Shown here piece after piece: positions 3,134 to 33,754 of a stretch of DNA of 38,864 nucleotides (the first letter of the stretch is position 1; every line of letters starts with the position of its first letter). The position numbers were made by a program, and so were the translations under genes. The stretch is from Rubrivivax sp. (GTDB lineage Bacteria; Pseudomonadota; Gammaproteobacteria; Burkholderiales; Burkholderiaceae_C): the NCBI GenBank assembly GCA_027490215.1, contig JAIXYO010000069.1:1-38864 (forward strand), read 5' to 3'. The notes beneath the pieces were generated by a model that saw only the letters and a list, made by a program, of their open reading frames with translations, made no database searches and had not been told where the DNA came from.

Positions 3134-3151
3134 GACCGCGGGAGACCTGCC

Positions 3152-3796: not shown

Positions 3797-3828
3797 TTTC
3801 CCACCCAACCCACCATCGCGAGGTTGCC

Positions 3829-4971: not shown

Positions 4972-4981
4972 GGTCACGACG

Positions 4982-6429: not shown

Positions 6430-6532
6430 CACGGTCACCGACTGAGCCGCTAAACAGATGGTCGAAGTAGTTCGAAGAGCGTGTGAGCATAGGAGGATGC
6501 CTGCAAACCTGGCATCTAAACCCGAGGGCTCT

Positions 6533-9175
6533 TCATTTAGCAGTGGGCCAGACCAAGGCAGACTCTTTCACGACCCTGGATCCGAACTGAAGGTCCACGG
6601 TATCCAACAAGTCGTTGAGCGCAGACATCGCCGAGCGTCGCCAACTCGTGAGGGCTTCAGTGTCAAACGCTCCATCCGGAGACTCTGATTTGAGGTTGCA
6701 GCGGTTCAGAGAACGAAGCACCTCCCAGTCGCGAAGCAGCCTGAAGCTGCCTACGGCGCCAGTGATCCCGACGATTGCTCGCCGCGACTGTGTCGCCACA
6801 TCGGTCACTCTGCTCGACACGTCGACCACCATCATCGGATCGTCAAGGCCATCGACGGCGCAAACCGTTCCAGCGAGACGCTCCGCCTGATGCAGTGCCT
6901 TCTCAAGCAGAGGATGCCCTATGCCCATCAAGTCCGCCTGACTCGGCGCCTTCCGATCGAAGACCAGGTTGTCGTAGGACTTGCGAATGGCGTGGCTGGT
7001 GAGCCAGTCCTCGGGAGTTCTGAAGGACAGTGCGGCGCCTTCCACCTTTGGTCTGCGGCGGTTCAGGGTCAGAACGTTCTGGAAGAACGGCATGAGGTCT
7101 GGCAGATCAACTGGCGGGACGTCCTTCAGATCCGATAGGTCGAAGCTCTCCGCATGGCCTATGAGGTCGCGAACCGTCTGTATTGCCGACTCTCCACCAA
7201 GCGTTCCAGTGGTGTTGTCAAACCACGAGTCCAGCTTCTCACGCTTAACGCTGATCGCACCGGAGAAGAGGTCGTCGAACAGGCCCTCGCCACTCATGCC
7301 CAAGACGAGTTGCATCAGATCCTCAGGCTCGTCCATCGCAGACCCGAGCGCACGCATGATGCTGTTGAGCTTTTGCTCGAGCTTCTGCCAGATCATGGCT
7401 TCGACCGTGTCCGGGTTCCTGAGGGACACCACTTCGACTGGGCGCTGCTGCCCATAGCGGTTGAGTCGGCCGACACGTTGGTGCAGCCGCATGGGGTTCC
7501 AGGGCAAGTCGACGTGGATCAATGCACTACACCGCTCCTGCAAGTCGATGCCCTCGCCGCCAGCCTCCGTCGACACCAGGAATCGAATGCGACCGGCATT
7601 GAAGGCATCGCACATGTCTTCACGGCGTCCCGCCAACTGGGTCAGGCGGCCGTCTGGCAGCCTGATGCCTTCCAGGCGGTCGTCCCCATTCATGAATCCC
7701 ACCGCGCCCTGGCCAAACTCCGCCATCAAGGCACTGATGACAAGCGCCTGGGTACGCTTGTACTCGGTGAAGAGCAACACGGGCTCATTGCCAAACCGTT
7801 GCTTGATGACCTCGATGATTCGGACGATGCGAGTCTCTGAAGTAACCTGATCCGCTGCGGCAATGAGGTCTGAAAGGTATCGACCCTCATCTTCCATCAG
7901 GCGAAGTCGAGCCTGCTTCTCATCCCGCAGCCAGCGCTGCAAGGCCTGTTGGGCCTCGTCCCCCTCACCTTCATCAATGGCTGCAAGCTCCGACTTGGAC
8001 TTTGCGGCCTCCGCCCCGAGACGTTTGATCCGCGTCTGCAGCGCGGCGACAACCGCCGCAATGGAACTCGAAGCGAGCTTCTGAAGCGCAATGAGCACAA
8101 GCATCACTTGCCCTCCCTCAGTTCGACTGAGGGACGTCGCGTATGCCTTGCCCGCCAGGATGAACTCGGACATCAGGTCATAGAAGGTCTCTTCTGGTGG
8201 CGAGTAGGTGAATGTCTCGGGGTGCTGGACCACTGGCTTGAACAGCCGCTGACCCTTCATGTCAGTTGCCTTCTGTTTGGCGTTCCGGATCAGGAATCTT
8301 GGAAGGGCCTGGAGCATGCCGCCTTCGTTCTTCTTGGGGCCGAAGACGTCGGCATCGAGCAGACTCATCAGCGACCAGAACCCAAAGTTTTTCCCTCGAT
8401 GCGGCGTGCCCGTGAAAAGCACGCAGGAGGTCACCTTGCCAGCCCTGTTCAGCTTTTCAACCAGCTCGAAGCCGAGTGTCTTTCCGGTCTCCTCGTCAGC
8501 GTTGAGGTGATGGGCCTCGTCGATGACCACCATGTCCCAGACAGGCGCATCAAGCAGGCGATCGTGCCGGCCGTTGCGGTCCGCGCGCAGGGTCGGCAAT
8601 GACGCGACGACGATCTGGTGAATGCCCCAGAAGTCGGTTCGATCTGTGTCCAGATCCGTGTGATACGTCGCCGCCCGGATGTCGAACATCCGTTTCAGTC
8701 GCATCTGCCACTGCCCGACCAGCTTGGCCGGGCAAAAGATCAACACCCGCTGGACCTTCCTGCTGGCAAGCAAGGGCCAGAGCAGCAGACCGGCTTCGAT
8801 CGTCTTTCCCATGCCGACGTCGTCAGCGATGAGCAGACGCATCGGCCAGGAACGTAGTGCACGGTGGCAAACCCAAAGCTGATGTGGAAGCAGCGAAATA
8901 CGCGACCTCGTGAACACGCCCCAAGCCGCATTGACTGATGTGATCACCTCGGCCTGGACTCGCGCAGCCACTTCAAGCGAAGGCGCCAGCTGCCCTTTTG
9001 TCAGCGCTTCGGATACGGAGGCGACCGGCGTCAACTCTTTCGTGAAGACCTGCTCGATGCCGTGAGCAAATCGTACGACGGTCGTGTCTCCATCCGTGAG
9101 CAGCACGGTGCCTTGTCCATGCCGTGCGTGAAGCACCAAGGCGTTCGGCTGATAGGTCTTGCCGTTGGTCGTCAC
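6533..9175 (-). CDS. SNF2/RapA-type helicase, BREX-associated
   Basis: An 880-residue superfamily 2 ATPase of the SNF2 type, probably a DNA translocase. A short SH3/Tudor-like N-terminus (about 8-50, with ARHGQGTVL and VRFAHGIEQVF) resembles the RapA N-terminal region. Motif I DDVGMGKT is at 118-125, the DEAH box VIDEAHH around 219-223, and motif III TGTPH at 255-259. The second RecA lobe carries LLFTEYKRT, VSTEAGGEGIDLQ and the arginine-finger motif QRVGRLNRYGQQ at 566-577. The GTG start at 9175 overlaps the stop of the upstream giant gene (GTGA) and has AGGAGGAG five bases before it; the 20 extra upstream codons were rejected. SNF2 proteins occur in several BREX types and in DISARM (DrmD). 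Without DRM genes nearby, I assign it to this BREX-type operon. Confidence 0.93.
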   Translation of the reverse strand: MTTNGKTYQPNALVLHARHGQGTVLLTDGDTTVVRFAHGIEQVFTKELTPVASVSEALTKGQLAPSLEVAARVQAEVITSVNAAWGVFTRSRISLLPHQLWVCHRALRSWPMRLLIADDVGMGKTIEAGLLLWPLLASRKVQRVLIFCPAKLVGQWQMRLKRMFDIRAATYHTDLDTDRTDFWGIHQIVVASLPTLRADRNGRHDRLLDAPVWDMVVIDEAHHLNADEETGKTLGFELVEKLNRAGKVTSCVLFTGTPHRGKNFGFWSLMSLLDADVFGPKKNEGGMLQALPRFLIRNAKQKATDMKGQRLFKPVVQHPETFTYSPPEETFYDLMSEFILAGKAYATSLSRTEGGQVMLVLIALQKLASSSIAAVVAALQTRIKRLGAEAAKSKSELAAIDEGEGDEAQQALQRWLRDEKQARLRLMEDEGRYLSDLIAAADQVTSETRIVRIIEVIKQRFGNEPVLLFTEYKRTQALVISALMAEFGQGAVGFMNGDDRLEGIRLPDGRLTQLAGRREDMCDAFNAGRIRFLVSTEAGGEGIDLQERCSALIHVDLPWNPMRLHQRVGRLNRYGQQRPVEVVSLRNPDTVEAMIWQKLEQKLNSIMRALGSAMDEPEDLMQLVLGMSGEGLFDDLFSGAISVKREKLDSWFDNTTGTLGGESAIQTVRDLIGHAESFDLSDLKDVPPVDLPDLMPFFQNVLTLNRRRPKVEGAALSFRTPEDWLTSHAIRKSYDNLVFDRKAPSQADLMGIGHPLLEKALHQAERLAGTVCAVDGLDDPMMVVDVSSRVTDVATQSRRAIVGITGAVGSFRLLRDWEVLRSLNRCNLKSESPDGAFDTEALTSWRRSAMSALNDLLDTVDLQFGSRVVKESALVWPTAK

Positions 9176-12100
9176 AGTTGCTCCTCCTGCTCTGCGGTTT
9201 CGTCGGACTCCATGAACGATCCGTGCTCTGCCCATCGCTCAGCTTCGCGGCGCGCCGCCTCGTTGGTCGCAATGAGTTGAAGCGGAATGTCATACGCCCC
9301 CGAGAAACATGCCGCCTCCTCGCCCAGCTCTGATATCAGGACACGGTAGATGTCGCTGCTGGACCTGAGATCGGTGTGCCCAAGTCGAGCCATCAGCTCG
9401 AGCACCGCACTTCTTGGAGCAAAGGCAAGCTCGCGCGCAACATCGGAGGACAGGATCTCGAGACGAAGCAACTCACGAATGACCAGGTGCTGACCCAGCC
9501 GAAGCATGCCGCTCAAGGTGGGCGCCTCGATACCTGAGCCACTGAGGCTGGGGTCCGACGCTGGCGAAAGCAGAAATTTGGCCAGCTTCGAGTCGCGGCG
9601 ATCCAGCGTCTGAAACAGATGAACGTAGGTGTCGAGCCATCGGGCGATCCGATACAGCCTCGGAAAGCTGTCCATCCACAGCTCGAAGAGCGTGTCGGTC
9701 TGCTGCCCCTCGCCGTAGGCCCGAAGAATATCCATCCAAGCCTCGGCGCCGACGTCGGGATGCACTTCGCAGATCGTCTGCCACCAGCCCTTGCTACCCA
9801 GAAAATCGAGGAAGCCACGATGCTGCTGGTCCGTGACCCGACCGTACCGGCGGAACAAGCCCATGCTGAACAGCGTCATCCAAGCGGTTCTATCGTGAGG
9901 CTCTTCCTCTTTGAGTGCACTTCGATCGACGCTCGCTGGCCAGAATTTGCGATCGAACTCGGCCAGCCACTTCATGCCGTTCTCAGACCACCAGCCATGA
10001 ATCGAGGCCAGGTCGAGACTCGGCGACAGGTCCGGAAAGTCTTCCTCGTCGGTTGCCGCCAGCCCGAGTTTGGTCAGCAGTAGTCGCCTCTCTTCTGTAG
10101 ACAACCCACCCAAGGCAAGTGAATCCTCTTCCAACGCGAACAGCCATCCGCCCAGGTGACTCCGCGCTCGAAGCAGTTCAATGACCGGCCCGTAAATATT
10201 GCGTGCCAGCCATGTGGCGGCCGCGGACTGCGGGTCATCGCCAGTGGCGGACATACACCAGCCCGCGAGCATGGATGGGTCATCGCTCCAGACGGGCAGG
10301 TATTGCTCGACGAAACGAAATGCCGGGGAATCAGCCACGTAGTCGCGGTGCAGAACAGCCTTGTCCGGCGCGAATCTGCTCAGAAGTTGGTCCTCTGGAC
10401 CATGCCCTCGAATCAACGCCTTTGCGGGAACCCATGTGCCGGCACGGGAGCGCAGCGAAAGCGAAGCCATCTCGGCGCGCCACCTGTAGGGCTCGCCAAG
10501 ATTGCTCGGCCAGACACGAATGACCTCGGCCAGGTTGGCTACCTCAGCCGGTGGCAAGTGACCGCAATCGAAAGCCCCCACGACCTGAGCCAAGCCGAGC
10601 GCAGGAATGCTCTCTTCCTCTGCCAAACCGCAGCGCTGCAGCCACCCACGAACCTGATCGGCGCACCATCCTTCAACGGGGAACTTGTCGACGAACAGTT
10701 CCCACCGGAGCAACGCAGGGGCGACGTTCGCCAGGTAGGTCAGATTGACCGACAAGCACAGACTATCGACATCGGCCAAGGCCGCATCGTCCCCTTTCAG
10801 GCCGTTTGGAATCCGACCTGTCCGATCAACGACATTGCGGACAACGCTGCACGCGAATGTGTCGAGCAGCCGCACGTCCATCGCTGAATCCTGCTCAGGT
10901 GGCTCTCCGAGGAGCTTCTCCCACAGACCGTACCAAAAGCCGGCCGGCGACACCGACTGCGAGCATCCCATCGCGGCGGCCAGGACAGGCCAGTTCGATT
11001 CCGACTCGGTTTGCAAGTCAATCAGGACCGGTGAGACTTCGTCCGCGAGTGTCTTCGTCAGGGTCGTGTTGATGAGGGTGGCAGACTTTCCGAGCGCCAG
11101 CGTCGCGCGCCCCGTGTCGATCTGAAAGGGCGCGTTCAACAGAACGCCACGGGCAGCCGTTCCGCGGGTCGGCGCTGTCACCCAGGTCGCTGGAACAGCA
11201 GGTTGGGCTTTGCGGTCGAATTCCTCGATACCGCCTGCTCCAATCCGGAGAACGACACTGCCCGAAGCGGCTCTAAACACCAGGATCCCGGAGTGGACGC
11301 GCCCGCCGTCGACGGGAAGCGCCACAGATCCGGTCTCGATCTGCCTGCCGCTGCCCAGCCGAACGATCCGGGGTTGCCAGGTGTGAGGCTCCTCACCCAC
11401 CACGACACAACGAAGCTTCCGCGCGAAGACCGGCAGAAGGCCAGCAAGTCCGGCGAAACGCTCAGTCACCTCAGAAGCAGCACCCCGCGAATCGAGCGGC
11501 AATTCGATCAGCGTTCCGCGCAGCGCGCGCTGACTGGGTGTCTGCACCGCTTGGTGGAACTGTTTCGTTGCCGGACTCGCCTTCCACTTGCGCGGAAGGC
11601 ATCCCGCCACCACGTCAAAGCACAGGTCACCGCTCCAGACGCGAGGTGTGCTCGATGTGAGCAGCACGCTCTTGAATCCAAGTCCGAACTTTCCGGTGAC
11701 TCCCTCGTCTTCGTCCTTCGCCGACGCTCCCAGCATCAACATGCGTTCGAGGTCGTTCGCGAACTCCGCCTTGTAGCTGGCCAAACGACCAGCGTAATTG
11801 ATAGGGCGACCCCAGTGGGCGAAGCGGATCGTCCGGTCCGACGACTGCATGACGAAGCGGCCGATGGCCTCCGCGTCGAACTCCAGGCGGCCATCGGCCT
11901 TCTGCAGATGCTGCATCTCGATAACGGCGTCATCGGCGTTCTGGAAAACCTCGAACGGGATGCTGGCCACCTCGTACTGGTTGTGCGTGACCCGAGCCTT
12001 GATGCCAGCCAGCACAGCGCCCTGCACTTCTTCGTCGGATTCGACCAGCGCGGCAAGGTCTCCGAGGGCACTTTCAAGACTTGCTGCTGCGCCAGCACTG

Positions 12101-15100
12101 CTCCGGCCTGCCCGCTTGGCGCTTGCCGCACCGCGCCTGGCTTCGTCCAGGCTCGCCAACGCCTTCGCCAACTTCTTGTTCTTTCCGATACCGGGCAATG
12201 AACGCAAGGACTGCGGAAGCCCCTCCAGAATCAGTCCGCGAGCCACGTCCAGCGTGACCTGGTCCGCCTCGTCGGCAAGGGCAAACAGCTCGGAGAGGTT
12301 GGCGTGCTGCTGGTTGTAGAGATCCTTGAGCAGTGATTCTCCCGTCCGCATCAGGATGTCTCGCTGCTGCTGGGGCTCTTTGTCCAAGAGCGCGGTCGCT
12401 GGCCGCATATGCACCCGACAGGTGAAACCCTGCCAGCGGTCCGTCATGACGAACAAGGTCTGGAGCTCATCGACAGGTGCCATCCGAACCTGAACTGCGG
12501 CGCCAGTCAACGACTTCGCGCTCACGTGGTTGCCGCTCAAAACGGCAAGACGGATGGTCAGCGTCCTGAGCGCCTGCGCCAGCGTCTTGTTGCCCATCCA
12601 CTTGACCCGCCGGTCAAAGCCGTCCTCGTGGCCCGGGTCTCGCCAACCAAGTTTGGCGAGATAGTCCTCGTATGCGATGGGGTCGAGCCAACTCTTCGCA
12701 AGAGAGGCGACCCGCTCTCCGAAAAGACCGATCACGGCACCCGCAGCAGGCTTGACGCTGCTGGACACCAAAGGCTCGAAGTACTCCTCTAGCGACTGCA
12801 GCAGTTGCTCCTGCGCAGCGCCGCCCTCTTCACCCGGCAAGTCAGCCGGCTCGAGCGTTGGCGTCGAACGGTTGTCGACAGCGATTCCGCCCAAGGATTC
12901 GAACTGCCTGTCGTTCACGACAAGCTCAGGCATCACGCCATGCACGCCAGCCACGAGTTCGGCGGCTGGCACCCAGGTTCCGGCCTTGCTCAGCAACCGG
13001 AGTTCCGAAAGCGACTTGCGGAGTTCTGGCTCGGAAGCGCTGGCGCGCCACTCGCTCAAGTAAATGCCGAAGACCTCGCGCACGGGCGCACTCAGTCCCA
13101 GCTCGGGAATCTGGGTCAAAGTTCTCCGGCAAATGTCCGCGGACAGCTGTTTGGCGACCTCGGGAACCAGATGCTTCTCGACCGCATCGATCGAGGTTGC
13201 GACCGTCGCCCGCTCAAGAATTCTCCATGCGGGCAGCAGGTCGATGGAGACCAAGGTGGACATGTATTGCTGCAAATCACGATAGCCGGTACTTGCTGCC
13301 CGACCGATCGAAAGGCCGGCCTCAGACATCAACTGCCCCAGAACCGGTAACGCTTCTTCCCCGCTGCTGACTTGAGCTAGCAGTGCCGGGAAGGCGGGGT
13401 GAGCCCGGAGTTCGGCGGACAAGTCGTCCGTGCCGGCGTATGCATAGTCACATCGGCGTGCAAGGCCTCTGATTTCAGCGTCGAGATTGCTGATGCGGAT
13501 GAGACTGTTCAACGCGATTGCTTCACCGGTTTCCAGCGGCAACCATGCCGTTTCACGCCAGGCCTGCGGCAGTCGATCAGTAAGAGTTCGTTTTGCGCCC
13601 AACAGGTCCATCAGGTAGCGCCAATGCTGAACAGGGCTCGCTGCTCTCAAGACGACCGACGCGGCGGTCGTCGCGTCCCAGGTCCGCAGGAATCGCTTCT
13701 GCTGCCGCTTATGGTCATCATCGACGGATGGTTCTACGAACCGAACGCCAATACTCAGGCCATCAGGGAGCTCAGGATCTCGGCCCAAGAAGCACTCACC
13801 CTGCACCGCACCGCGCTGACCGCTGAAGTCCCTGTGAAGCGGCAGGCGCATCCAAGCGTGCTCCTCCACCACCCTGCCGAGCAGCAGATCGATCTCCTCG
13901 GAAGTGAACTCAGTCGCGTCGACCCGGCTGAAATCGTTGCACACGCGAAGTCGATTGAGCACGGAGGTCTCATCAACGGCCTTCACGTTGAGTGGCTGTG
14001 CACACTTGTCCGGTATGGAACTGCACAGGCTGTCGGCCAGCACGCGCCACGGCGCCTCATCGACCATTCGCCATAGCCTGACCCAGGGTGACTTCTGACC
14101 AACCGGATCCTTCCACAGCACATCGCTACCAAGATAGTGGTCCGGCGATCCGTGCAGCAGGTATCGAACGCCTCGGATGACGATTGGATCGTCGAGTTTC
14201 GCGGTTGCGACTAGCGTGAGGAGGTCGGCGCGCTGCAGGTTGTCGCCAAGCAGCGGCGGCGTCGCCTGTGCACCCGCTGCACGCAACACAGCCTCGGGAT
14301 CTTCCGAGCTGGGTATCCTGCCAAGGCCATCCTCTCTCACCCCATCCACATAAGACGCGACGGTCGAGCGAACCACGAACACTCGGAATTCGGGGAGGGC
14401 GCGAGCCAGCTTCTGGACGAATCCCAAAGGCCGATTGGGATCGGAAACCTTGAAGACCCAGCCTCGGCCATGGGACTCGGTCAATTCAGCCAGGGATACG
14501 CCCTCGATGTCGCCATCCGCACCTTTGTAGGCACGAAGCACCTTGAGGCGGCTGCACTGGCGCAGTAGCGATATCTGCCTGGTCTCGTCGCCAGCTGCTC
14601 GAATTACGCGCTCTGAAGCATCAAGAAGCTGAGCCTTGGTAACGCCGCCTGAGTGCGATTCGCTCAAGTCGTGCCGCGTCATGGCATCCAGCCAGGCACC
14701 GAGGTCTGCATCGCTCGTGATCGCAGTAACGCCGTCCGGGCCGAGATCGCCAGGTACCGGCAGCGCGCGGGTCGAAGCGCTCAAAAGCGTTCGATAGAGT
14801 GCCTCAGGTATTGCCCCTTTGGCCGCATGATCCTGCGGACCGAACGCGAATATCCGGTCGGGCGACAACAGTTGAACGATGCGCTTGAAAAGCTTCCTGT
14901 GCTGGCGGACGTCGACCAAACGTACTGTCTGCAGGCACGTTCGCAAGAGGGCGACCAATGCATCTTGGATGTCGCCAGTACGGACGTACCGTGCAGCCTC
15001 CATCTCCAGAAAGTTGGCGAGATATTCGAGGTCCGTCCCGCTCTTCAGTATCTGCGCATCGATGCCCTTCAAAGCACGAATCAGAAGATCCGGCTCCCAG

Positions 15101-16728
15101 GTGGCGTGGCCGATCGCAAGACTGGGGGCCGCGGCGTCAGCAAACGCATACCCGTTCAAAACTGCCAGGCCAGGCAGCGCTCGCCACGGTCTCTCTGCAT
15201 CGTGCAGGGGTGGAGCTGGCAAGGACAACACCGGTTCAATGGCTGGCTCGACGAGTTCCCAACGCGACCCAGACTTCGTCAGCCGTCGAATCCAGGCAAA
15301 GCGCTTGCAGATGAATTGCTGAAACGTCGGATAAAACGCGACGCGCGACCCCGCATCGCCCGCCGCAGCGCACTCCACGATGGCGCGCGTCAGCGCAGCA
15401 GTCTCGTCGTCTTTCAGACCAGCGGATTTGACGTACTCCGAGAGTCCGGGAAGGAACTCCGGCAGCACGGCCTGCTGCGCCAATGACTGGTTCCATTGCT
15501 TCAGCACTACGTGCTGCGATGGGCTTTCTGGCAAGACCTCACAAGGCTTGTCCAAAGCGTCCATGTCGGCGATACCCCGACGACCCGCATCAACGAAGAA
15601 TTGCCCGTGCAGGACGATTCGATACTCCCGGGAAGACCCTGGTATCCAGGCTTCGTAGCTGAAGCGCTGCTCCTCAGCCGGAAGGAAAACGGCCCACTGC
15701 AGGTCCAGTCGACCGGCACGCTTGTCTGCATGAGCAAACATCACGGCTGCTTCGGCGACCGCCTTGTCGGGTCTCGGCTCGCGGGTCCCAGCCTCCGTGA
15801 TGACCATAGACGTCGGCCAGCTCTTGGCCGCACGCAGCGCGCCGAAGGGTAATGCGGCACCGGGTACGCGCTGGCGAACCAGGAAGTGCATGTGTTCAGA
15901 GCGCGGGCGATCATCCCTGACAGTGCCGGAGATCTGAACGTCGTCGGTCTCGTGATCCAACCGTTGATATGCAGGATGCGACTCAAGAGTCACCGTGAAC
16001 GGTTCACGCATGTCCGCACCGGCAAACCGTACTTGCTTCAGGTTCCTTAGAAGGGGAAGCAGCCCCCCTATACGCTGATCAGTGCGGGGGTCTGAGAAGA
16101 AGTCGAGATCCTCTGCTGGGTTCTCGCCGGGATACCGCTCGATGATTGCCGCCATGGGCCGTTCACCTGATCGGGGAACATGCGACTGCCGACGCAGAGG
16201 AACCCACAACAGGAACCAATCGCTGCCGATAGCCGCCTCAGGCTGTGCTCGCGCCACCGACTCCAGGCAGGTCAAGTCATTGTCGGTAACGGCCTCCCAC
16301 TGCTGGTGCATCTCCGAGCAGTCATAGTCTTCAGCGCGCCACGGGTTCAGAAAGTCTTGACTGAGTTCTCCCCCATGGCTTGCCAAGTAGAAGAAGCTCT
16401 CGCAGAGGTGGAAGACGCTCTTCATGCCGAGACCGAACTTTCCGATCGCCCCGGAATCACCCGCCTTGGCGTTCAGTCCAAACGAGCGAATTGCGCGGCG
16501 ATCGCTTGCCTTGAACCTCCCGTCATTCAGCACCCAAAGAGCCGGGCCCTTGAGCAGCATGTGGTCGGCTGCCGCACCATGACCAGGGTGGAACCCGAAC
16601 GCCAGTGACTTTGCTCCCGCGTCGTCTGCGTTCTGCACGAGTTCCTTCAGGATCGGGAAGCCGCTTCTGTAACGATCGCGCAGATTGATAGCAATCTGAT
16701 TGACGTAGTCGGTGGTGAATCCAGTCAC
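9172..16728 (-). CDS. Giant sacsin-like protein with two GHKL (Hsp90-type) ATPase modules
   Basis: A 2518-residue cytoplasmic protein. The first GHKL ATP-binding fold is at the N-terminus: N-box ELVQNADDA at 29-37, VLNDG near 66-70 and GKFGLGMKSVF at 96-106. A second complete set appears much later: QNADDA at 1596-1601 and GKFGLGFKSVL beginning at 1679. Both sets match the sacsin N-terminal/Hsp90-like family, so each module can be expected to bind ATP. The long segment between them and the final 800 residues match no domain I recognise, though repeated PVARE/LSLR-like phrases suggest helical repeats. Translation probably starts at GTG 16728 with a weak purine-rich site upstream. It is preceded by 146 noncoding bases and is coupled by GTGA to the SNF2 gene. 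The pairing suggests an ATP-driven clamp or chaperone working with the translocase; that role is inferred. Confidence 0.88.
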   Translation of the reverse strand: MTGFTTDYVNQIAINLRDRYRSGFPILKELVQNADDAGAKSLAFGFHPGHGAAADHMLLKGPALWVLNDGRFKASDRRAIRSFGLNAKAGDSGAIGKFGLGMKSVFHLCESFFYLASHGGELSQDFLNPWRAEDYDCSEMHQQWEAVTDNDLTCLESVARAQPEAAIGSDWFLLWVPLRRQSHVPRSGERPMAAIIERYPGENPAEDLDFFSDPRTDQRIGGLLPLLRNLKQVRFAGADMREPFTVTLESHPAYQRLDHETDDVQISGTVRDDRPRSEHMHFLVRQRVPGAALPFGALRAAKSWPTSMVITEAGTREPRPDKAVAEAAVMFAHADKRAGRLDLQWAVFLPAEEQRFSYEAWIPGSSREYRIVLHGQFFVDAGRRGIADMDALDKPCEVLPESPSQHVVLKQWNQSLAQQAVLPEFLPGLSEYVKSAGLKDDETAALTRAIVECAAAGDAGSRVAFYPTFQQFICKRFAWIRRLTKSGSRWELVEPAIEPVLSLPAPPLHDAERPWRALPGLAVLNGYAFADAAAPSLAIGHATWEPDLLIRALKGIDAQILKSGTDLEYLANFLEMEAARYVRTGDIQDALVALLRTCLQTVRLVDVRQHRKLFKRIVQLLSPDRIFAFGPQDHAAKGAIPEALYRTLLSASTRALPVPGDLGPDGVTAITSDADLGAWLDAMTRHDLSESHSGGVTKAQLLDASERVIRAAGDETRQISLLRQCSRLKVLRAYKGADGDIEGVSLAELTESHGRGWVFKVSDPNRPLGFVQKLARALPEFRVFVVRSTVASYVDGVREDGLGRIPSSEDPEAVLRAAGAQATPPLLGDNLQRADLLTLVATAKLDDPIVIRGVRYLLHGSPDHYLGSDVLWKDPVGQKSPWVRLWRMVDEAPWRVLADSLCSSIPDKCAQPLNVKAVDETSVLNRLRVCNDFSRVDATEFTSEEIDLLLGRVVEEHAWMRLPLHRDFSGQRGAVQGECFLGRDPELPDGLSIGVRFVEPSVDDDHKRQQKRFLRTWDATTAASVVLRAASPVQHWRYLMDLLGAKRTLTDRLPQAWRETAWLPLETGEAIALNSLIRISNLDAEIRGLARRCDYAYAGTDDLSAELRAHPAFPALLAQVSSGEEALPVLGQLMSEAGLSIGRAASTGYRDLQQYMSTLVSIDLLPAWRILERATVATSIDAVEKHLVPEVAKQLSADICRRTLTQIPELGLSAPVREVFGIYLSEWRASASEPELRKSLSELRLLSKAGTWVPAAELVAGVHGVMPELVVNDRQFESLGGIAVDNRSTPTLEPADLPGEEGGAAQEQLLQSLEEYFEPLVSSSVKPAAGAVIGLFGERVASLAKSWLDPIAYEDYLAKLGWRDPGHEDGFDRRVKWMGNKTLAQALRTLTIRLAVLSGNHVSAKSLTGAAVQVRMAPVDELQTLFVMTDRWQGFTCRVHMRPATALLDKEPQQQRDILMRTGESLLKDLYNQQHANLSELFALADEADQVTLDVARGLILEGLPQSLRSLPGIGKNKKLAKALASLDEARRGAASAKRAGRSSAGAAASLESALGDLAALVESDEEVQGAVLAGIKARVTHNQYEVASIPFEVFQNADDAVIEMQHLQKADGRLEFDAEAIGRFVMQSSDRTIRFAHWGRPINYAGRLASYKAEFANDLERMLMLGASAKDEDEGVTGKFGLGFKSVLLTSSTPRVWSGDLCFDVVAGCLPRKWKASPATKQFHQAVQTPSQRALRGTLIELPLDSRGAASEVTERFAGLAGLLPVFARKLRCVVVGEEPHTWQPRIVRLGSGRQIETGSVALPVDGGRVHSGILVFRAASGSVVLRIGAGGIEEFDRKAQPAVPATWVTAPTRGTAARGVLLNAPFQIDTGRATLALGKSATLINTTLTKTLADEVSPVLIDLQTESESNWPVLAAAMGCSQSVSPAGFWYGLWEKLLGEPPEQDSAMDVRLLDTFACSVVRNVVDRTGRIPNGLKGDDAALADVDSLCLSVNLTYLANVAPALLRWELFVDKFPVEGWCADQVRGWLQRCGLAEEESIPALGLAQVVGAFDCGHLPPAEVANLAEVIRVWPSNLGEPYRWRAEMASLSLRSRAGTWVPAKALIRGHGPEDQLLSRFAPDKAVLHRDYVADSPAFRFVEQYLPVWSDDPSMLAGWCMSATGDDPQSAAATWLARNIYGPVIELLRARSHLGGWLFALEEDSLALGGLSTEERRLLLTKLGLAATDEEDFPDLSPSLDLASIHGWWSENGMKWLAEFDRKFWPASVDRSALKEEEPHDRTAWMTLFSMGLFRRYGRVTDQQHRGFLDFLGSKGWWQTICEVHPDVGAEAWMDILRAYGEGQQTDTLFELWMDSFPRLYRIARWLDTYVHLFQTLDRRDSKLAKFLLSPASDPSLSGSGIEAPTLSGMLRLGQHLVIRELLRLEILSSDVARELAFAPRSAVLELMARLGHTDLRSSSDIYRVLISELGEEAACFSGAYDIPLQLIATNEAARREAERWAEHGSFMESDETAEQEEQL
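9181..9188 (-). promoter_or_regulatory. Strong ribosome binding site fixing the SNF2 start
   Basis: The - strand reads AGGAGGAG here, five bases before the GTG at 9175. It lies inside the last codons of the GHKL gene and decides in favour of this GTG over the longer frame. Confidence 0.8.
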
Positions 16729-16874
16729 TTCTCTTGTCCCCTGAAAAGCTCTCGACTACGCCCTCGGCACCGAATGTTGGCTGCCGCCTGCCCTACGTCG
16801 ACCCAAGCAACCGTGATACCTGCTGTCCTAGTGTCGGACCTAGCGGCGTCCCGTTCCTGAATTGGTCTCCCCAC

Positions 16875-18710: not shown

Positions 18711-18741
18711 GCTTTCTATTCCTTGATCCCTGAGCCGCGTC

Positions 18742-24635: not shown

Positions 24636-24660
24636 GTTGTTGTATCCCTCGTGATTCGTG

Positions 24661-27600
24661 TCAGGCCTGCGCGGCTGCGCTGGAGCGTCTGCCGCGTGTG
24701 CGGCGAACGGGCGCAGGCGGCTGCCAGGTACGCACCGCCGTGAGTGTTAGCCCGTGCTGGGCCAGTTGCGCATCGAGCAAGCCCTGCAGGTAGTCGCCGG
24801 TACTCATGCCCAGGTCGTCGTCGATCTCCGGGTGCCATTGATGGACCCAGGGCAGTAGTTCGTCCAGGCCAGCCAAAGCGGGCGTCAGGCGAGCGGCGTC
24901 AGCGCCTTCGCGTTGCAGGATCTCGTACAGATGACCTGTCAGTGCCAGGGCACGTGCCTTGGCGTCGTAGCCGGCCCACAGCAGCATTGGGCTTCCGGCA
25001 TCGTTGCTGCGCTCCAACCCGGGGAAGCTGATGAAGCGCTCCTTGGGGACGTCGAGCGGACCACGCTGCTTCCATAGGGGGCCATCGAGAAAATCCTCGG
25101 GTTTGTACTTCGGTGGCACCGGTATGGCGCCAATCTCGCTGGTCTTGCGTCGCATCTGCTCGGCAGCAATATCCTCGGCGGACGCCGCAATCATGGTCCT
25201 GCTAACGTCAGAGTCGATGACATCCTCTTTTCGTTGCAAGGCCCAGGTGCTTCGCCACACCGAACGCTTGCGCAGGCCGCTGTCGGTATACCGCAGCACA
25301 TCAAGGTAGGGCACGGTAGCCTGTTGCAGGAGTGCCGTCACCGTCACGTGGGCATCGCTACCCGTGCCGGCGTACAAGTCCAATGCACGGCGGAAGCTCT
25401 CGTCGCCCGAAAGCGCATCAACCAGCTCCCGAACAGAGCGTAGGCGCGGAGCTGGATGAGCGTCTCGCGGCCAAAGGTCGGTCGCCTCCAACCGATCAAG
25501 CAGCCAGCCCTCCAGCGCAACCTTTTCGAGCGTGTCCCAGTCAGAACCTGCCCAGCGGCGTTTGCACTCCGGTCGTTCAATCAGCGCGAGGTCACGCGAT
25601 TGCTGGATCGTGGAAATTCGACGTTCGACCAGGGCGCGGTAGTCTGCCGGCCAGCGCGCGGGACATTCCGCAATGGGTTGTGCGCCGTGACGATCGAACC
25701 ACGTCGTGGACGTAGTCCCCGCAGCTAGCTGCCGAGCCAACAGAATCTCGAAGGCGCGCTCTCCGAATTGAAGACCGGGTGGCGCATCTGAGTAACAAAG
25801 CGGTTCGTCCAATACGCCATAGATGCGGTAGGTCTGCCAGTCCAGTTCCTCCTGCCAAGCAATCATCTCGCTTCGAATGCGATCGACTTCAGTCTTCGCC
25901 GCATCCAATTCAGCGCGGGTTGGTACTGCTAACCCGAACGTCGCATCAGGCAGGCGTGTCGCCCGTTGGGTAGCCAGGCTGTCGATTCGCTTGGCGATTT
26001 CGACGGGACGTTCCACCGCCACAGGGAACTGACCGACTTTCGTACTGTCATGCGCGAAGCGCTCATCCCAAAGTGAACGCCGAACACGGGCACCTTCGGT
26101 GCCCATGTGATCGCCACCCTTTGGGAAGCAGACTTGTTTGAGCCAGAAGCAAGATGTCGAGGAATTCAGCAGTCCGAGGACACCCAGGTTGTCATCTTCG
26201 GTGGTGTTGACAGGTAGCTTTATGACCGGCGCGGTCTGCTTGAAGACCTTGCCTCCACGGTCAAGGACGAAATGGTTGTGTGTTGCAACTTCTCCAAAGG
26301 CAATGGCATGTTGATAGGTCAGTCGAGCCAAGGTAATTTGATGCCAGCTCCACCATGCCTTCCCATCAGAGAAATACGTTCCTTGACCGAAAGTCGCTCT
26401 ATTCCCAAGTAATGTTCGGAAGGTCCAAAGGTACCGATGCAATCCAGGGAAATCGGAAAGCGAGACTAAGCCTTGCTCAGCATACGGAACGATTCCATGT
26501 TCATCGGACGAAATCGCCCATTCACGAACGTTGTCGCCTTCGACGAGGGGTCGAACCATTGAGGATTCGACACCCAGCCTGTTCGTCGTGTTTCTGGCAA
26601 GCACGAATGCATCGTCTGCACTTGTGCGCCCTGTGCCGCCATACACATCTGCAAAGGCGCTGATGATTTCTGCTCCAGCGGCATTGATTCGTTCAAGCAG
26701 ATCGGCAGCACCACCACCGGCCAATGCCCATGGGTGGCTGTAAAACTTATCGCGAGGAAAGTCATGAACGCTGACCCACTCTGACTCGGAGTCTCTGCGA
26801 TCGATCTGAGTCAATATGGCGTTCCAGACTATCCCTTGTCCAGGGTCACTTGGTGTCGATGGTTCACCATTGATGCCCAAGACAGCGCGAACAAATGGAT
26901 TCACGGGCGGTCGATTCTGCCCAAGCAGGATTACCGTTGGAGTCCCATGACCGGGTATGTAAGCTCCCGAAGTGTCTATGACATACGAGAGCTCTACTGT
27001 TGGGAAGAAGCCCTCAACCAGCTTCTTGCCAAACTCTCGCTTTTTGAACGAGTCCGACACGATTAGCCCGACAAATCCCGCTCGCTGAGTGTTGTCCAAG
27101 TTGCGAGCGAGAGCCCAGAACCGTTCGCAAAAAGGCGCCACCAAGGCATAAGTCCGATGGCAGCTCTGGAAGCGTTGCCGGTAGAGGGCTGAGACAGCCT
27201 GATCCTTAACCGTGATGTAAGGTGGGTTACCAACCACCGCAGCGTACTTTCTCGCCAGGATCTGATTGGTCGCGGTCAAGTCCTCCGCCGCAAACGCGTG
27301 CCGATACAGATGGTCAGCAGCCGTCGCCAGATTCTCTTGCGGTGTGTTCAATGCGAGCGATTCCTGGGCTCGCGCGTAGTCGCGCTGATCGAATCCGTGC
27401 AACAAGCTGTCGCCAGTTTCAATGTGCAGATGGAAGTCCGGCGCAAGTCTCAGCTTGTGCACTTGGGCCATCTTGAGCGCGGCCACCAGCAGTCGGAACC
27501 GGGCGATCACCACGGCGTAGGGGTTCAGGTCGATGCCCGCGATGCGGTCCAGCGCCTCTTGCAGAGCCAGATTGACGTTGTCTGGCCGCTTGCGTAGCCA

Positions 27601-28353
27601 GCGCGGTGCCAATCTTTCAAAGGCGCCGAGCAAGAAGTGCCCCGACCCGCAGGTCGGGTCGATCAGGTCGACTTCTTCCAGTGTGTAGATGTCGAGCGCA
27701 AGCGTCAGCGTGCGGTCCAGGATGAAGGATTCAACGAACTCTGGTGTCTGTAGTAGGGCGTACCGATCCCGCGCGGCCTCCGACAGGTCCTGGTACAGAT
27801 CGCCCAAGAATCGGGTATTCCAGTCGGGATCAGCGAAGTCGTGAACCAGCGCGCCAGTGTCGGCATTGGTGGCCCGGAAGAAGCGCACCAGTTGCTTGCC
27901 CATGTCCGCAGAGACGGGGGCCGTCAGCAAGACGCGCTGGACCTTCATGACGTCTGACAGGCCAGGTAGGCGGCTCGCGACCGCGAACACGTCGCGCAGG
28001 TAGTCGTTGTCTGAAGCAGTCGGGTTTTGGAGGTAGAAGCCTTCCTGTCTCGCTACAGCAGATTGACCCCGGGCGTCCGTGCCGGCGATCAGCGGCGCGT
28101 CGAGCAGAGCGTTGTCTTCACAGAAGCGGACGAACACGCAGGCCAGGACCCAGGCTACGGCGGACTGGGTGAACTGCGCTTCAGACCAAGTCTCCACGGC
28201 CTCTGATGTGCGCCCGGCGTCGCGTGCCGCCTGCCACTCGGCCGTGAGGCGGCTCTTGTACTCCACATGGGTGGTAAAGCGACCGCGCAGATCGCTCTCC
28301 AGGTCTCGGACTTGGACCTTCAGGTCCGCCAGCAGCTTGGTGCGATTGATCAT
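24661..28353 (-). CDS. pglX: PglX, BREX type 2 adenine-specific DNA methyltransferase
   Basis: A 1230-residue N6-adenine methyltransferase that marks host DNA and sets the recognition specificity of BREX. The AdoMet-binding motif I DPTCGSG is at 232-238 and the catalytic motif IV NPPY at 376-379. The N-terminal 220 residues are the helical BREX-specific extension. The region after NPPY (to about 750) should hold the target-recognition domain. It is visibly richer in A and T than the rest of the gene, suggesting a separately acquired or recombined segment. The start is the ATG at 28353, overlapping the pglW stop (ATGA); the 23 extra upstream codons lie inside pglW. No frameshift or simple-repeat tract suggesting phase variation was seen. 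Confidence 0.95.
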   Translation of the reverse strand: MINRTKLLADLKVQVRDLESDLRGRFTTHVEYKSRLTAEWQAARDAGRTSEAVETWSEAQFTQSAVAWVLACVFVRFCEDNALLDAPLIAGTDARGQSAVARQEGFYLQNPTASDNDYLRDVFAVASRLPGLSDVMKVQRVLLTAPVSADMGKQLVRFFRATNADTGALVHDFADPDWNTRFLGDLYQDLSEAARDRYALLQTPEFVESFILDRTLTLALDIYTLEEVDLIDPTCGSGHFLLGAFERLAPRWLRKRPDNVNLALQEALDRIAGIDLNPYAVVIARFRLLVAALKMAQVHKLRLAPDFHLHIETGDSLLHGFDQRDYARAQESLALNTPQENLATAADHLYRHAFAAEDLTATNQILARKYAAVVGNPPYITVKDQAVSALYRQRFQSCHRTYALVAPFCERFWALARNLDNTQRAGFVGLIVSDSFKKREFGKKLVEGFFPTVELSYVIDTSGAYIPGHGTPTVILLGQNRPPVNPFVRAVLGINGEPSTPSDPGQGIVWNAILTQIDRRDSESEWVSVHDFPRDKFYSHPWALAGGGAADLLERINAAGAEIISAFADVYGGTGRTSADDAFVLARNTTNRLGVESSMVRPLVEGDNVREWAISSDEHGIVPYAEQGLVSLSDFPGLHRYLWTFRTLLGNRATFGQGTYFSDGKAWWSWHQITLARLTYQHAIAFGEVATHNHFVLDRGGKVFKQTAPVIKLPVNTTEDDNLGVLGLLNSSTSCFWLKQVCFPKGGDHMGTEGARVRRSLWDERFAHDSTKVGQFPVAVERPVEIAKRIDSLATQRATRLPDATFGLAVPTRAELDAAKTEVDRIRSEMIAWQEELDWQTYRIYGVLDEPLCYSDAPPGLQFGERAFEILLARQLAAGTTSTTWFDRHGAQPIAECPARWPADYRALVERRISTIQQSRDLALIERPECKRRWAGSDWDTLEKVALEGWLLDRLEATDLWPRDAHPAPRLRSVRELVDALSGDESFRRALDLYAGTGSDAHVTVTALLQQATVPYLDVLRYTDSGLRKRSVWRSTWALQRKEDVIDSDVSRTMIAASAEDIAAEQMRRKTSEIGAIPVPPKYKPEDFLDGPLWKQRGPLDVPKERFISFPGLERSNDAGSPMLLWAGYDAKARALALTGHLYEILQREGADAARLTPALAGLDELLPWVHQWHPEIDDDLGMSTGDYLQGLLDAQLAQHGLTLTAVRTWQPPAPVRRTRGRRSSAAAQA

Positions 28354-31300
28354 GGTTGTTTTGACTTCGTGCTGGGCGTGGCGGCCGCACTGCCGTGTGT
28401 GCGGTGGGCGTTTTCGAGCCAAGCGCGGGGGATACGACCGTAGTCGGTGGTGTTGATGGTGACCGGAACGGCTTCGCCATCCAGCACGGGGCGGTTGTCA
28501 GGCGTCAGAGGGCTGGCAATCAAGGCGACCAGCGGCGGGCGTTTGCCAAACATGCAGGCATCGGCCAGCTTGGCGAACAGCGGCATCCGCTGCCAGCGTG
28601 CAGCCAGCCCGAGATTCACCAACAAGCCCGGCTTGTCGTCCTGCAAAAGTTGCGCCTCGACCTTGGGCCAGACTTCACCGAGCACGGTCGCGAAGTTCTG
28701 TGCATCCACCGAACCTGCGGGCGCGGCATCGGCGGCCAGCAGGATGTTCCAGTCCACGTCCCATTCCTTGGCTTGCGTCTCGAGCAGGGTGAGCACGACC
28801 TCGTCGAAGTCGATGACCTTCAGTCCAAAGCGCTGCGACAGTTCTCGCTGCGCGAGCGCGAGGCCCTTGGGGTCAACGGACAGCGTGAGCAACTTGCCGC
28901 TGGTCAAGGTGTGCTTGATGCGCTCGTCGATCTGCAGTGCCGCCTGTACATCCGGCGCTGTAGACGAGCGCGGGCGGTTGCTGGTCGTACCAAAGCGCGT
29001 GATCTGTGTGGTGCCAGAAATGATGCCCGCCGAATAAAGCGTGACGAAGGCGCGCTTGGCCCCGTCCCACTTGACTTCCAGGCCCGCGTCCTTGAGCAGC
29101 TGCTCCAGCTCCGAGGGGCCGGGCAAAGGCGCCGCCTCTGGGTAGCGGGCAAAAATCCGGCGCCGGATGGTCTCCATGTCGAACTGACGCAAACCGAGCA
29201 GAGAGTTGGTGGCCAGCTTGACGGCGCGTGCTGCAGACAACTGGGCCGGATAGAACTCAAGGCGCGAGGACAGGGCTGCCTGCCGGGCGCATGCAGCTGC
29301 CAGGCGAATCAGGCGATCAGCGCTCAGGCCCGCATCCCCCGCAGGTGGCGGAACGCGCGCCAAGGTGTCGGCCACCTGTTGTGACGATGGCAGCGGGTCT
29401 TGCTGTGCCAGGCGGTCGGCCGCTTCGCCCAGAACCACGGCGTAACTGGCACGCACCTCAGGTGCGGAGGGGAACAGCCCGGTCGCGCCGCTGCTGGCGA
29501 GTGTGGCGACCACCAGATCGTCGACTTGCGGCGCTTCAATCAGCGGCCGAACGTTGGCGTCGCGCTTCACCAGTTGCCAACGGGCTGCTTGCTTGGTGCG
29601 CTCGACGGTGATGACCGCTCGCGTCAGCGCTTCGGCCTCGCTGTGTCGGGCTGGGCCCGTTTGCACGCTGCCGCGCCGGGCCAACAATGCGGTGGCAATC
29701 TCGCCAACCGTGGCGATGCCGCCCAGCCCTGCCAAAACAAGGGCCACGTCGTCTCGCAGGTGCGTGACTTCCGGCTGGCGCGACATCCGCTCAGCCATCG
29801 ACTGCAACAGGTCCTCGGCCAGTGGTGAGGCGTTTGCCTGTGCGCTCAAGCCCAGCCAAGCCTCCAGAGCCTGGAGTTGTGCGTCGTCGCCTTTCTTGGG
29901 CACGAGCAAGGCGGCTGCCGCATCCACCGACAGCTTTGCCACGGTGGTGTCTGCAGGCTGCTCGTCCTTGGCCGCGCCGCCGCTGAACTGTTGCCGCAGT
30001 CGGTCAGCAATTTGGTGCAGTTCACGCGCGACGGCCAAGGCGATGCCACGGTGCCGGTAGAGACGATTGCGCGGCAAGTCGGCCAGATCGCCCGCAGTGG
30101 CCAATTCCTCGTGGCCAATCCGATCGAGCAGTTCAAGGTGCCGAGAATCCAGTTCCAGCGACCCGATGGGCGTGCTCGGCGTGATGCCGCTTTCGACGGA
30201 CGTCGGCTCATCACCGAAGGGCAGGTCGCCTTGCGGTGTTTGCGTCGTGTGCGAGGTGACGGGCCGCGAGACGTTTTCGAACACTTTGCGCCACTGACGC
30301 AGCATCTGTTCGGCGTTGTCAAAGCGCTTGCGGTGGTCGCGGGCCAGTGCCCGAGCAAAGAAGTCGAGTGCCTGCTTGCGAATCGACGCATCAAAGCGCT
30401 CGGAGTCCAGACCGATCTCGGTTTTCAGGGTTGCCGGGTCGGCGCTTCCATCGCCCCATTCGGGCAAAGTGCCGGTGGCCATTTCATGCAAGGTCAGCGC
30501 GCAGGAGTAACGCTCGGCATACCCATCCCACATACCGCGCTTGCGCAAGAACGGGTCCATGTAGACACGCGTGCCTGCGTTCAGGTCAGTCGCAGGAACG
30601 CCCGCCAGCGAGAAGTCGAACAGCGTGAGGGTGAGTCGCTTGCCGGTCCCTGGGCGGATGCCGATGTTGTCTGGCTTGATGTCGCGGTGCGGTACGCCCT
30701 CGCGCTCCAGGTACTCCACAACCGATATCAGCTCCTCACCGAACCGCTGCAGCAGGTCCAAGCCCAGGCGTCCCTCTTGGCGCAGGCGTTCGCCCAGTGA
30801 TTCATCTCCTGCCGAGGAGAGGAAAAGGGTCGCCAGCCCCGCGATTTCGAAGCGTTCAAAGCACTGAACGATGTTCTGGTGCGGCTGTAGCCGCACCAGC
30901 GTCTCAGCTTCGCGCTTGAGTCGCTCGTTGTACTCTGGCTCCAAGGCGATCTTGAAAACACCCTGGCGCGGCTGCCCTGCGCCCTTGCGGCGTACCTCAA
31001 GGGCCAGACTGGTGCCGCCTTTGCCGAGCCGGCGGATGACTTCAAAGCCGTTGAGCTCATTGCCGGTGTTGGCTTCCAGCGGCGAAGCCAGCGGTGATGC
31101 CGGTGCGGTCAGCGCGTCTTCGAGCGCTTCTTCTGCCTTGTCGAGGGCGGCCAAGAATTCGTTGGTCGAGCTGAACCGGTCATCGGGCGAAGGCCAGGTG
31201 GCGAACTGGATGAGTTCCTCAATCTCGGCCAGGCAGCCGTTGACCATGGCCGACAAGGTGAGTCCGGGCCCTTGTTCGCACTTGGTGACCAGCTCGTCGC

Positions 31301-32561: not shown

Positions 32562-32651
32562 CGGCAACCCCCGAGCAAGCTGGACATTGGAGATGGGCGG
32601 CCTAGACGTGCCGCGCCGTGCCCTACATTGATGTTTGGTAGACGGGTCATT

Positions 32652-33566
32652 TCAATCGCAATCTTGTTCGGGCTCGACGGGCTCCGGGCTTTCGTAGCCG
32701 GGAGCCAGCACGGCGCTGCGCACGCCGTACAACGCCAAGTGATTTCTGAGCCAGAGCCTGTGCTCAGGGCCGTTCAATTTGTGGGTCGGGGAGCAGTCCA
32801 CGCTCCACTTGCGCAGGATGTAGCCGGCCATCGCGGCACGCAGCTTCATCTTCAAGACGCCGCGCTCCATGCTGTAGTCCATCTCGGAAATTTCGGGATG
32901 CGGCTGGCCGGGATGGGGGACCAAGTCCAACTCCAGTATTCGGGTCCACTGAATGTCCTGATCGCTGACCTCGTCGGGCGCGACGGGCATCCCTTTGAGC
33001 ACGACTGGCCGTCTGATGCGGGTGATCACGAAGTCTCGGAACTCCTGCGACTTGCGATCAAAAGCGCGGACATGCCAGCGCAGACCGTTGTCGATAAGCG
33101 CAAACGGGACGACCTCTCGATCCGACTGACCGCTGGAGATCGAGTGGTATTCGATGCCCAGGGGGCACCCCAGATGGATCGCCCGGGTTACGTTCGCTAG
33201 AACATCAAGGTCCGGCTGCGTGAGCCGTGACGGGCTCTCACTGGCCACCCACGCCTTGAGCCGCATCGGCTCGCCGTCGCCAAAGCCTTGAGTCAGCCAG
33301 GACAACACACGCTCGGGTGGAAAGTCGAAGACCGGGTGGAAGTCCGGACCCAAGATGTAGGACTTGCCCTTGGAGTCGTAGTCGATGTTGCCGGGGGCCA
33401 AGTCTTTGTACAGCGCCAAGTCCCTGGTGGCGGCGGCGGACTGGATGCCAAAGCGCGACACCAGGTCTTGGCGGCGGATCTCCCCAATGAAGCGCACGCG
33501 CAGCTCGACGAACGCGAGGCGGTCGCGTTGCGGCTGGGTCAGGTCGGCAAGCTGATCTTTCGACAT
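32652..33566 (-). CDS. brxR: BrxR-like WYL-domain transcriptional regulator
   Basis: A 304-residue regulator with a winged-helix N-terminus (about 8-75, including VSRFGIQSAAATRDLALYKDL), a WYL domain (about 138-184, where the eponymous triplet reads WHV at 164-166) and a C-terminal WCX-like extension (about 210-290). This matches the BrxR/CapW group, which represses defence operons and is thought to respond to a nucleotide or nucleic-acid ligand bound by the WYL domain. It is the first gene of the leftward operon, 90 bases before pglW, and that gap shows no clear promoter. A good promoter and palindromic operator candidates lie just upstream of its start, so autorepression is likely. Confidence 0.88.
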   Translation of the reverse strand: MSKDQLADLTQPQRDRLAFVELRVRFIGEIRRQDLVSRFGIQSAAATRDLALYKDLAPGNIDYDSKGKSYILGPDFHPVFDFPPERVLSWLTQGFGDGEPMRLKAWVASESPSRLTQPDLDVLANVTRAIHLGCPLGIEYHSISSGQSDREVVPFALIDNGLRWHVRAFDRKSQEFRDFVITRIRRPVVLKGMPVAPDEVSDQDIQWTRILELDLVPHPGQPHPEISEMDYSMERGVLKMKLRAAMAGYILRKWSVDCSPTHKLNGPEHRLWLRNHLALYGVRSAVLAPGYESPEPVEPEQDCD

Positions 33567-33750: not shown

Positions 33751-33754
33751 CGTC

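Follow-up and report, generated by a model that had tools for sequence, protein, structure and literature searches.

We analysed a stretch of 38,864 bases from Rubrivivax sp. (hereafter the window), which forms one whole contig of a 3.51-Mb, 72-contig assembly, the sequence past its ends being unseen, and which carries a locus of the type 2 bacteriophage exclusion (BREX) defence system. From its sequence, this locus is likely to be a type 2 BREX variant that lacks BrxD and BrxHI and has a swappable slot after pglZ, with a mobile add-on encoding a double-GHKL protein and an SNF2 helicase. The eight genes of the locus are all open and all on the minus strand, in the order brxR, pglW, pglX, pglY, pglZ, GmrSD, double-GHKL and SNF2 (Table 1). 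PglW, PglX and PglY match their PADLOC profiles near full length and PglZ has its phosphatase domain with the invariant residues kept, and BrxD and BrxHI were not found in the window locus. The initial annotation, made from motifs, had read the core order from brxR to pglZ, which PADLOC matches for all five proteins bear out. It had also placed a DUF262/DUF1524 protein (GmrSD), a 2518-residue double-GHKL protein and an SNF2 helicase on the same strand, and this holds with a corrected start for GmrSD. We reset that start to the ATG at 18710: the five compared copies all open with MARIENHK, and the open reading frame (ORF) that begins with GTG at 18932 overlaps pglZ.

Module boundaries in the Rubrivivax locus

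As judged from DNA homology, the locus is two modules placed end to end and not a core followed by a trio. By blastn, the Limnohabitans locus L021 matches the window at 93.1% over 10,204 bp, covering exactly 6532-16730, a span that opens 2 bp ahead of the GHKL start codon and closes 1 bp after the SNF2 stop, and the match with locus L024 starts at 16730. Homology with the IMG/VR record G812 (locus L114; main blocks 92 and 94%) stops exactly at 16875, which is the GmrSD stop. That with G813 (84-85%) and G1141 stops at the same base, and that with G1188 at 16884. Because the homology blocks break at gene ends, GmrSD belongs with the BREX genes and the GHKL-SNF2 pair is a separate cassette. Module A (16875-33566) thus runs from brxR to GmrSD and recurs whole or partly in six other loci, and module B consists of the double-GHKL and SNF2 genes. 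The idea that the last three genes act as one unit is lost with this split, and the full trio was seen in only one of the 28 type 2 loci examined, namely the window. A consensus search revealed no sigma-70-like promoter in the 144-bp spacer between the modules.

The short PglZ and the slot that follows it

The PADLOC match of the window PglZ stops at profile position 756 of 910, and the protein ends three residues past the conserved WW at the close of the phosphatase domain. Six full-length type 2 PglZ proteins from plasmids extend 148-179 residues further, with a C-terminus that looks helix-turn-helix (HTH)-like by eye. No relative of PglZ was found among solved chains at E ≤ 0.01. Six more short-PglZ loci were found (G384, G812, G813, G795, G1188 and G1141), whose PglZ is 92-99% identical to that of the window. 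The last residue is 731 in G813, G384, G795 and G1188, and 732 in the window, G812 and G1141, the G1141 protein being split across two contig ends. In a tree of 18 PglZ sequences, the five short ones then known, from five of the seven loci, form one clade (100/100) on a long stem.

Tblastn gave no brxD or brxHI match at E ≤ 1e-5 in the available sequence around any of the seven short-PglZ loci, and two control stretches were positive. The sole BrxD match in the window covers 32 residues (E 0.003), and no BrxD match was found in its whole genome with a query that was positive in G164, G599 and G795; the earlier statement that both genes are missing therefore stands for the window, and for BrxD genome-wide. 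BrxD gave no match in the whole genomes G000, G1141, G1188 and G384, each at least 96% complete. G795 carries BrxD elsewhere, once beside its second, full-length PglZ. With a BrxHI query that had no second-genome control, the window genome gave just five helicase matches at 25-28% identity, none of them in the window; as a yardstick, the Polaromonas BrxHI shares 47-52% identity with two other plasmid copies.

In all 21 full-length-PglZ loci examined (14 + 7), brxD and brxHI follow pglZ. Among the first 14, the pglZ of L024 is cut by the contig start, and in L011 and L012 the best BrxHI segment covers part of the query only. ORFs in all loci were called mechanically and not by a gene caller, by which the brxD of G164 was missed and then recovered by tblastn. 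Type 2 PglZ places left out of the neighbour counts are G597, G643 and G777 (fragments), G795:C354 (BrxD found there) and G808:C46. In the loci examined, the PglZ C-terminal part, BrxD and BrxHI are absent together or present together. The proposal of a BREX sub-type is thus supported for a BrxD/BrxHI-less BREX marked by a short PglZ (7/7), and is not supported in its second half, in which the GHKL and SNF2 proteins do the work of BrxD and BrxHI.

The slot after the short pglZ is variable. GmrSD follows directly in the window, G812, G813, G1188 and G1141, and its protein in the latter four is 86-91% identical to that of the window. The homology in G384 enters the GmrSD start by 14 bases and then stops, leaving a GmrSD remnant, and in G795 pglZ is followed by the Septu genes PtuA (592 bits) and PtuB (238 bits). 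GmrSD was seen in none of the 21 full-length loci over a downstream stretch of about 4.5 to 11 kb. The window protein combines DUF262 with a DUF1524/HNH domain, with DGQQR and HNH-type residues spotted by eye, and thus has the domains of a type IV restriction enzyme predicted to cleave modified DNA.

GmrSD could then be a working replacement of BrxD and BrxHI, the PglZ C-terminal part having been lost as GmrSD needs none. Its position right after pglZ in five of the seven loci (31 bp apart in the window) and the start left in a sixth speak for this explanation, which we nevertheless consider unlikely: G795 has PtuA-PtuB in the same position, the GmrSD domains are neither a helicase nor an AAA ATPase, and GmrSD has been exchanged apart from the core, because its synonymous divergence (dS) far exceeds that of PglZ and PglY.

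Less probable still is that module A is a decaying remnant, in which the pglZ 3' end, brxD and brxHI were deleted and their place was taken by other defence genes. The window PglZ is indeed shorter than its six aligned full-length relatives, G384 has a split pglW, and brxR is eroded in places: it is 94% identical in G812, reduced to C-terminal pieces in G384 and G795 and not found in the G1188 locus. However, the frames are open and the ratio of nonsynonymous to synonymous substitution rates (dN/dS) is low, which argues against decay. Over four of the seven short-PglZ loci it is 0.034-0.071 for PglZ and 0.011-0.040 for PglY, and over three loci it is 0.050-0.086 for GmrSD; dS reaches 1.08. The PglZ end also differs by at most one residue across all seven loci, PglX has diversified in its centre with the remainder conserved, and module A is carried as cargo in phage records. 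A resolvase-like gene with a Tn3 look by eye lies at L104:12316-12900, near the cut brxR edge of the G384 BREX copy.

Residues 1-400 of PglX are 98-100% identical between the window and G812, and sliding identity falls to 32-40% in places across 400-1100. The centre of PglX (gene at window 24661-28422) is hypervariable between modules otherwise alike and has the look of a recognition region under exchange. In PglW, which contains kinase-like motifs, HRD and DIKPDN are present and DFG was not found.

Three of the seven short-PglZ copies have phage genes alongside. In G812 these include genes for a terminase large subunit (900 bits), a tape measure protein and tail proteins, and in G813 a gene for a tail protein. 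A phage lysozyme gene lies just past GmrSD in G1141, and the same gene is present in G812 (244/248 residues identical). PglX and GmrSD of the G1141 and G812 modules are 99.9-100% identical, G1141 belonging to the genus of the window. A type 2-like BREX operon with GmrSD adjoins phage genes in L114, L150 and L151 (G812), L152 (G813) and L148 (G1141). Phage-borne BREX is not new as an idea, and the accessible part of a preprint (PMC12458937) already mentions prophage-like elements with BREX cargo.

The GHKL-SNF2 pair and its genomic contexts

The first protein of module B has two GHKL cores, with QNADDA at 32 and 1596 and GKFGLG at 96 and 1679. The core matches Sacsin (5v44, E 3e-13), and Pfam SACS scores above the cut-off and HATPase_c_3 below it. 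An internal repeat beyond the cores was rejected, with hhalign confident for the core alone (96.8%). A nuclease domain at the C-terminus was likewise rejected: the model of the last 559 residues, the rest of the protein lying outside it, is mostly helices (predicted local distance difference test score, pLDDT, 88; predicted template-modelling score, pTM, 0.53) and has no PDB match at Foldseek E ≤ 0.001. No nuclease domain was recognised in the parts of module B tested. The SNF2 partner comprises a small beta-barrel, a helicase core and an alpha/beta C-terminus (model pLDDT 82), and its best match is RapA (profile E 2e-46, Foldseek E 4.5e-32). It cross-matches the PADLOC profiles of BrxHI/BrxHII (248 bits) and DrmA (164 bits).

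For the neighbourhood analysis we examined 85 loci, comprising the best 80 of 153 relatives among genome contigs, four plasmid loci and one IMG/VR locus. Of these, 83 have a GHKL ORF (L064 and L088 gave none), 55 have it at full length, and 50 of the latter have at least 2.5 kb downstream. An SNF2 gene of the same family is next downstream on the same strand in 48 of these 50, with gaps from -179 to 819 and most commonly of -4. GHKL and SNF2 distances correlate with r 0.79 (n = 49), against a maximum of 0.24 in 1000 permutations. The nearest upstream ORFs of the pair fall into 39 clusters among 49; four of these ORFs are pieces of GHKL and 13 are encoded on the opposite strand. In an order-wide sample of 399 genomes, SNF2 at E ≤ 1e-150 was found only in the window's own genome. 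In L002, L007, L080, L083 and L098 (several cyanobacteria and one Sphingomonas plasmid), two adjacent ORFs instead of one encode the double-GHKL protein.

A profile search of 48 carrier genomes (50 of the 80 loci) gave no type 2 PglZ match in 42. The profile is blind to type 1 PglZ, and the genomes of L081 and L082 read zero yet hold type 1 BREX. In the tabulation of neighbours proposed in the initial annotation, frequent occurrence of the pair without PglZ was to indicate a separate system, and this is the outcome obtained for type 2 PglZ. The alternative raised there, an independent system beside BREX, is supported for the GHKL-SNF2 pair, which also stands beside or inside other BREX and restriction-modification (R-M) loci, and not for GmrSD, which goes with the BREX module.

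These contexts are diverse. In L081 the pair comes after brxL of a type 1 BREX. In the type 1 BREX of a Pirellulaceae metagenome-assembled genome (L082:2074-26060) it lies between pglX, accompanied by a gene for a 1277-aa PIN-TPR protein, and pglZ-brxL. A Desmonostoc type 6 BREX (L080:134-24027) has the order brxE-brxA-brxB-brxC-pglX-GHKL (two ORFs)-pglZ-brxD-brxHI, in which pglX is named from similarity to that of L082 and no SNF2 partner was found. L024 is a type 2 BREX with a full-length PglZ end, brxD and brxHI, and a broken GHKL gene about 95% identical to that of the window lies at most 20 bp from brxHI, with no SNF2 beside it. An HmaB methylase and a DUF499 protein are encoded near the pair in L041, HsdR-like genes are near it in L037, L042 and L059, and L021 has one on the opposite strand, some 7 kb upstream. 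By annotation, the pair is also carried, with no BREX in 16 kb on either side, by plasmids of Trichormus, two Deinococcus and Sphingomonas. Module B is mobile, and in a number of loci it adjoins methylation-based defences. Type 1 and type 6 BREX genes in the 85 loci were sought with single sequences, and further links may exist.

It is very improbable that GHKL-SNF2 replaces BrxD-BrxHI and so creates a BREX sub-type. Both pairs combine an ATPase with a superfamily 2 (SF2) helicase, the GHKL-SNF2 pair comes after a BREX operon without brxD and brxHI, SNF2 matches the BrxHI/BrxHII profile, and in L024 and L080 SNF2 is missing where BrxHI is present, as if one helicase could stand for the other. 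However, L024 and L080 hold the GHKL gene together with both brxD and brxHI, most carrier genomes have no type 2 PglZ match, and the pair is unseen in the available sequence of the six other short-PglZ loci, of which G1141 reaches about 1.1 kb and G813 about 5.7 kb beyond GmrSD. In class 1 defence island system associated with restriction-modification (DISARM) loci, DrmA, DrmB, DrmC and a methylase stand beside DrmD. The remaining possibility, that the SNF2 gene is DrmD (PADLOC PDLC02634) and belongs to an incomplete class 1 DISARM in this locus, is the most remote of all, as PADLOC found no other DISARM protein among the eight window genes, the DrmA match of SNF2 itself apart, and SNF2 travels with GHKL. 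The 854 bits given by the DrmD profile to SNF2 (6533-9235), with no other DISARM gene beside it, indicate that automated calls may report false DISARM parts.

Several observations weigh against the reading of a BrxD/BrxHI-less type 2 variant with a swappable slot and a mobile add-on. The seven short PglZ proteins are so alike that their link with missing brxD and brxHI may reflect one event on the stem branch, and G1141, G812 and G813 are fragments or draft contigs, with genes past their ends unseen. The G384 copy, with pglW in two frames and brxR cut, may be decaying. The dS of GmrSD between the window and G812 is 1.08, compared to 0.06 for PglZ and 0.13 for PglY. As to the add-on, two of the 50 full-length GHKL loci depart from the pairing, L071 having no SNF2 and L077 only a distant one (31%). 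Of 13 loci with a split or cut GHKL and room for a partner, nine have SNF2 (on the other strand in L063) and four do not (L024, L080, L083 and L098). Finally, at least four of the 85 module B loci outside the window are BREX-linked, which could be ordinary defence-island clustering.

The carrier of the window looks like a conjugative element, because its left flank encodes VirB11-like, VirD4/TraG, OmpA-like, LPD7 and DUF1173 proteins. PADLOC was run on the eight locus genes, and Pfam or PHROGs alone on those of the flanks. In the right flank (33686-38864), four of five ORFs have no PHROGs match, both ORFs scanned with Pfam have no match, and the ORF at 35438-35986 resembles an HD phosphohydrolase. 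Near-identical plasmids were sought by megablast with window positions 1-25000, which returned only short pieces in seven records.

Table 1. Positions of the genes and other features in the window.
Feature	Position	Strand	Supporting match
Left flank: VirB11-like ATPase, VirD4/TraG coupling protein, OmpA-like, LPD7 protein, DUF1173 protein	3..6247	+	Pfam
Module B DNA block	6532..16730	-	blastn vs Limnohabitans Bal53 (L021)
RapA/DrmD-like SNF2 helicase, 900 aa, second gene of module B	6533..9235	-	PADLOC DrmD PDLC02634, 854 bits
Sacsin-like double-GHKL protein, 2518 aa, first gene of module B	9172..16728	-	Pfam SACS, 105 bits
Spacer between modules A and B, 144 bp	16731..16874	-	Final 30 bp common to L064
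GmrSD-type restriction gene, 611 aa, last in module A	16875..18710	-	Pfam GmrSD_N, 142 bits; GmrSD_C, 69 bits
Short pglZ, 732 aa; keeps the phosphatase domain, lacks the C-terminal linker and HTH-like part	18742..20940	-	PADLOC PglZ, 819 bits
pglY / BrxC ATPase, 1232 aa, Walker A GSFGSGKS at 70	20937..24635	-	PADLOC BrxC-PglY, 1550 bits
pglX, predicted adenine methyltransferase, 1253 aa, NPPY at 399	24661..28422	-	PADLOC PglX, 1573 bits
pglW, 1405 aa	28350..32567	-	PADLOC PglW, 1644 bits, residues 3-1393 of 1405
brxR-like WYL regulator, 304 aa	32652..33566	-	Pfam WYL, 44.6 bits; PADLOC WYL, 72 bits

Proposed function and comparison with known systems

As a tentative generalisation, for which we put the chances at somewhat below even, type 2 BREX has a detachable arm, made of the PglZ C-terminal part, BrxD and BrxHI, and a socket at its 3' end. 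One lineage would have shed the arm, and its socket would take exchangeable nuclease systems such as GmrSD and Septu. By analogy with known BREX systems, PglX would methylate host DNA, with the target site determined by its variable central region, PglW and PglY would sense invaders and form a DNA-bound scaffold, and PglZ would carry out restriction. The PglZ C-terminal part may be the place where the BrxD/BrxHI arm attaches, and the variant without it would rely on the nuclease encoded in the vacated slot. In the window this is GmrSD, which may cut modified phage DNA missed by PglX-based discrimination. The giant GHKL protein could act as an ATP-gated clamp or remodeller and its RapA-like SNF2 partner as a DNA translocase, and the two might add a second layer of defence by blocking or stripping phage replication or transcription complexes.

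A short-PglZ lineage that lives without BrxD and BrxHI, seemingly under selection, makes the role of these proteins testable. It raises the questions of which activity survives without the arm and whether the lost PglZ part binds BrxD. In addition, an almost complete BREX operon is seen in phage records, and the GHKL-SNF2 pair, whose helicase is called DrmD by a standard profile, recurs beside unrelated methylation-based defences. Taken together, this suggests that phage defences combine a stable core with parts that can be swapped.

According to the accessible part of a 2026 survey (PMC12839542), 91% of 1309 type 2 taxa have BrxHI and 88% have BrxD, so that each is missing from about a tenth of the taxa in that survey as well, and both are usual and not universal. 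The same part calls what BrxD and BrxHI do in type 2 BREX uncharacterised or only proposed and contains no BrxD/BrxHI-less short-PglZ clade. It lists many auxiliary nucleases beside BREX, including GmrSD and dyads of HNH and OLD-ATPase proteins, so swappable nucleases beside BREX have already been described. The words sacsin, HSP90 and GHKL are absent from its text. In the open literature we found no description of such a GHKL-SNF2 pair or of a BrxD/BrxHI-less type 2 clade, and a search joining sacsin, anti-phage and helicase turned up only a 2013 HEPN paper.

The helicase of module B shares the beta-barrel, SNF2 core and alpha/beta C-terminus of RapA, BrxHII and DrmD, and differs from them in its pairing with a GHKL protein and in a template-modelling score (TM-score) to RapA of 0.37 over the full chain. 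The GHKL protein matches the PADLOC profile of Tiamat TmtA at 80 bits; membership in Tiamat was rejected, with the best stretches (17-109, 7-111, 1657-1704 and the like) covering the GHKL core only of profiles of 1.3-1.7 thousand residues. With the MORC/paraMORC R-M systems (Iyer 2008, PMC2292703), described in the accessible part of that paper, module B has in common a GHKL ATPase and an SF2 helicase, of the SWI2/SNF2 kind in one class, linked to R-M genes. In contrast, the GHKL protein of the window is sacsin-like, double and 2518 residues long, and the word sacsin is absent from PMC2292703. The mobile GHKL-SNF2 accessory may be a new addition to the systems that combine a GHKL protein with a helicase.

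The GmrSD of module A resembles BrxU-type and GmrSD proteins beside type 1 BREX in being a DUF262 + HNH protein within a BREX locus, an auxiliary class named in the accessible part of PMC12839542, and differs in following a short pglZ in a type 2 core. Its best solved chain is 9jfl (a DUF262 protein, E 1e-9), and none of its three matches (9jfl, 20yv and SspE) is named BrxU. Compared to type 2 BREX (PMC12839542) and the Pgl system of Streptomyces, module A has the same pglW-pglX-pglY-pglZ order with near full-length W, X and Y, and differs from both in having no BrxD, no BrxHI, a PglZ without its C-terminal part, and GmrSD in the slot. The BrxD/BrxHI-less short-PglZ locus is probably a new variant of type 2 BREX.

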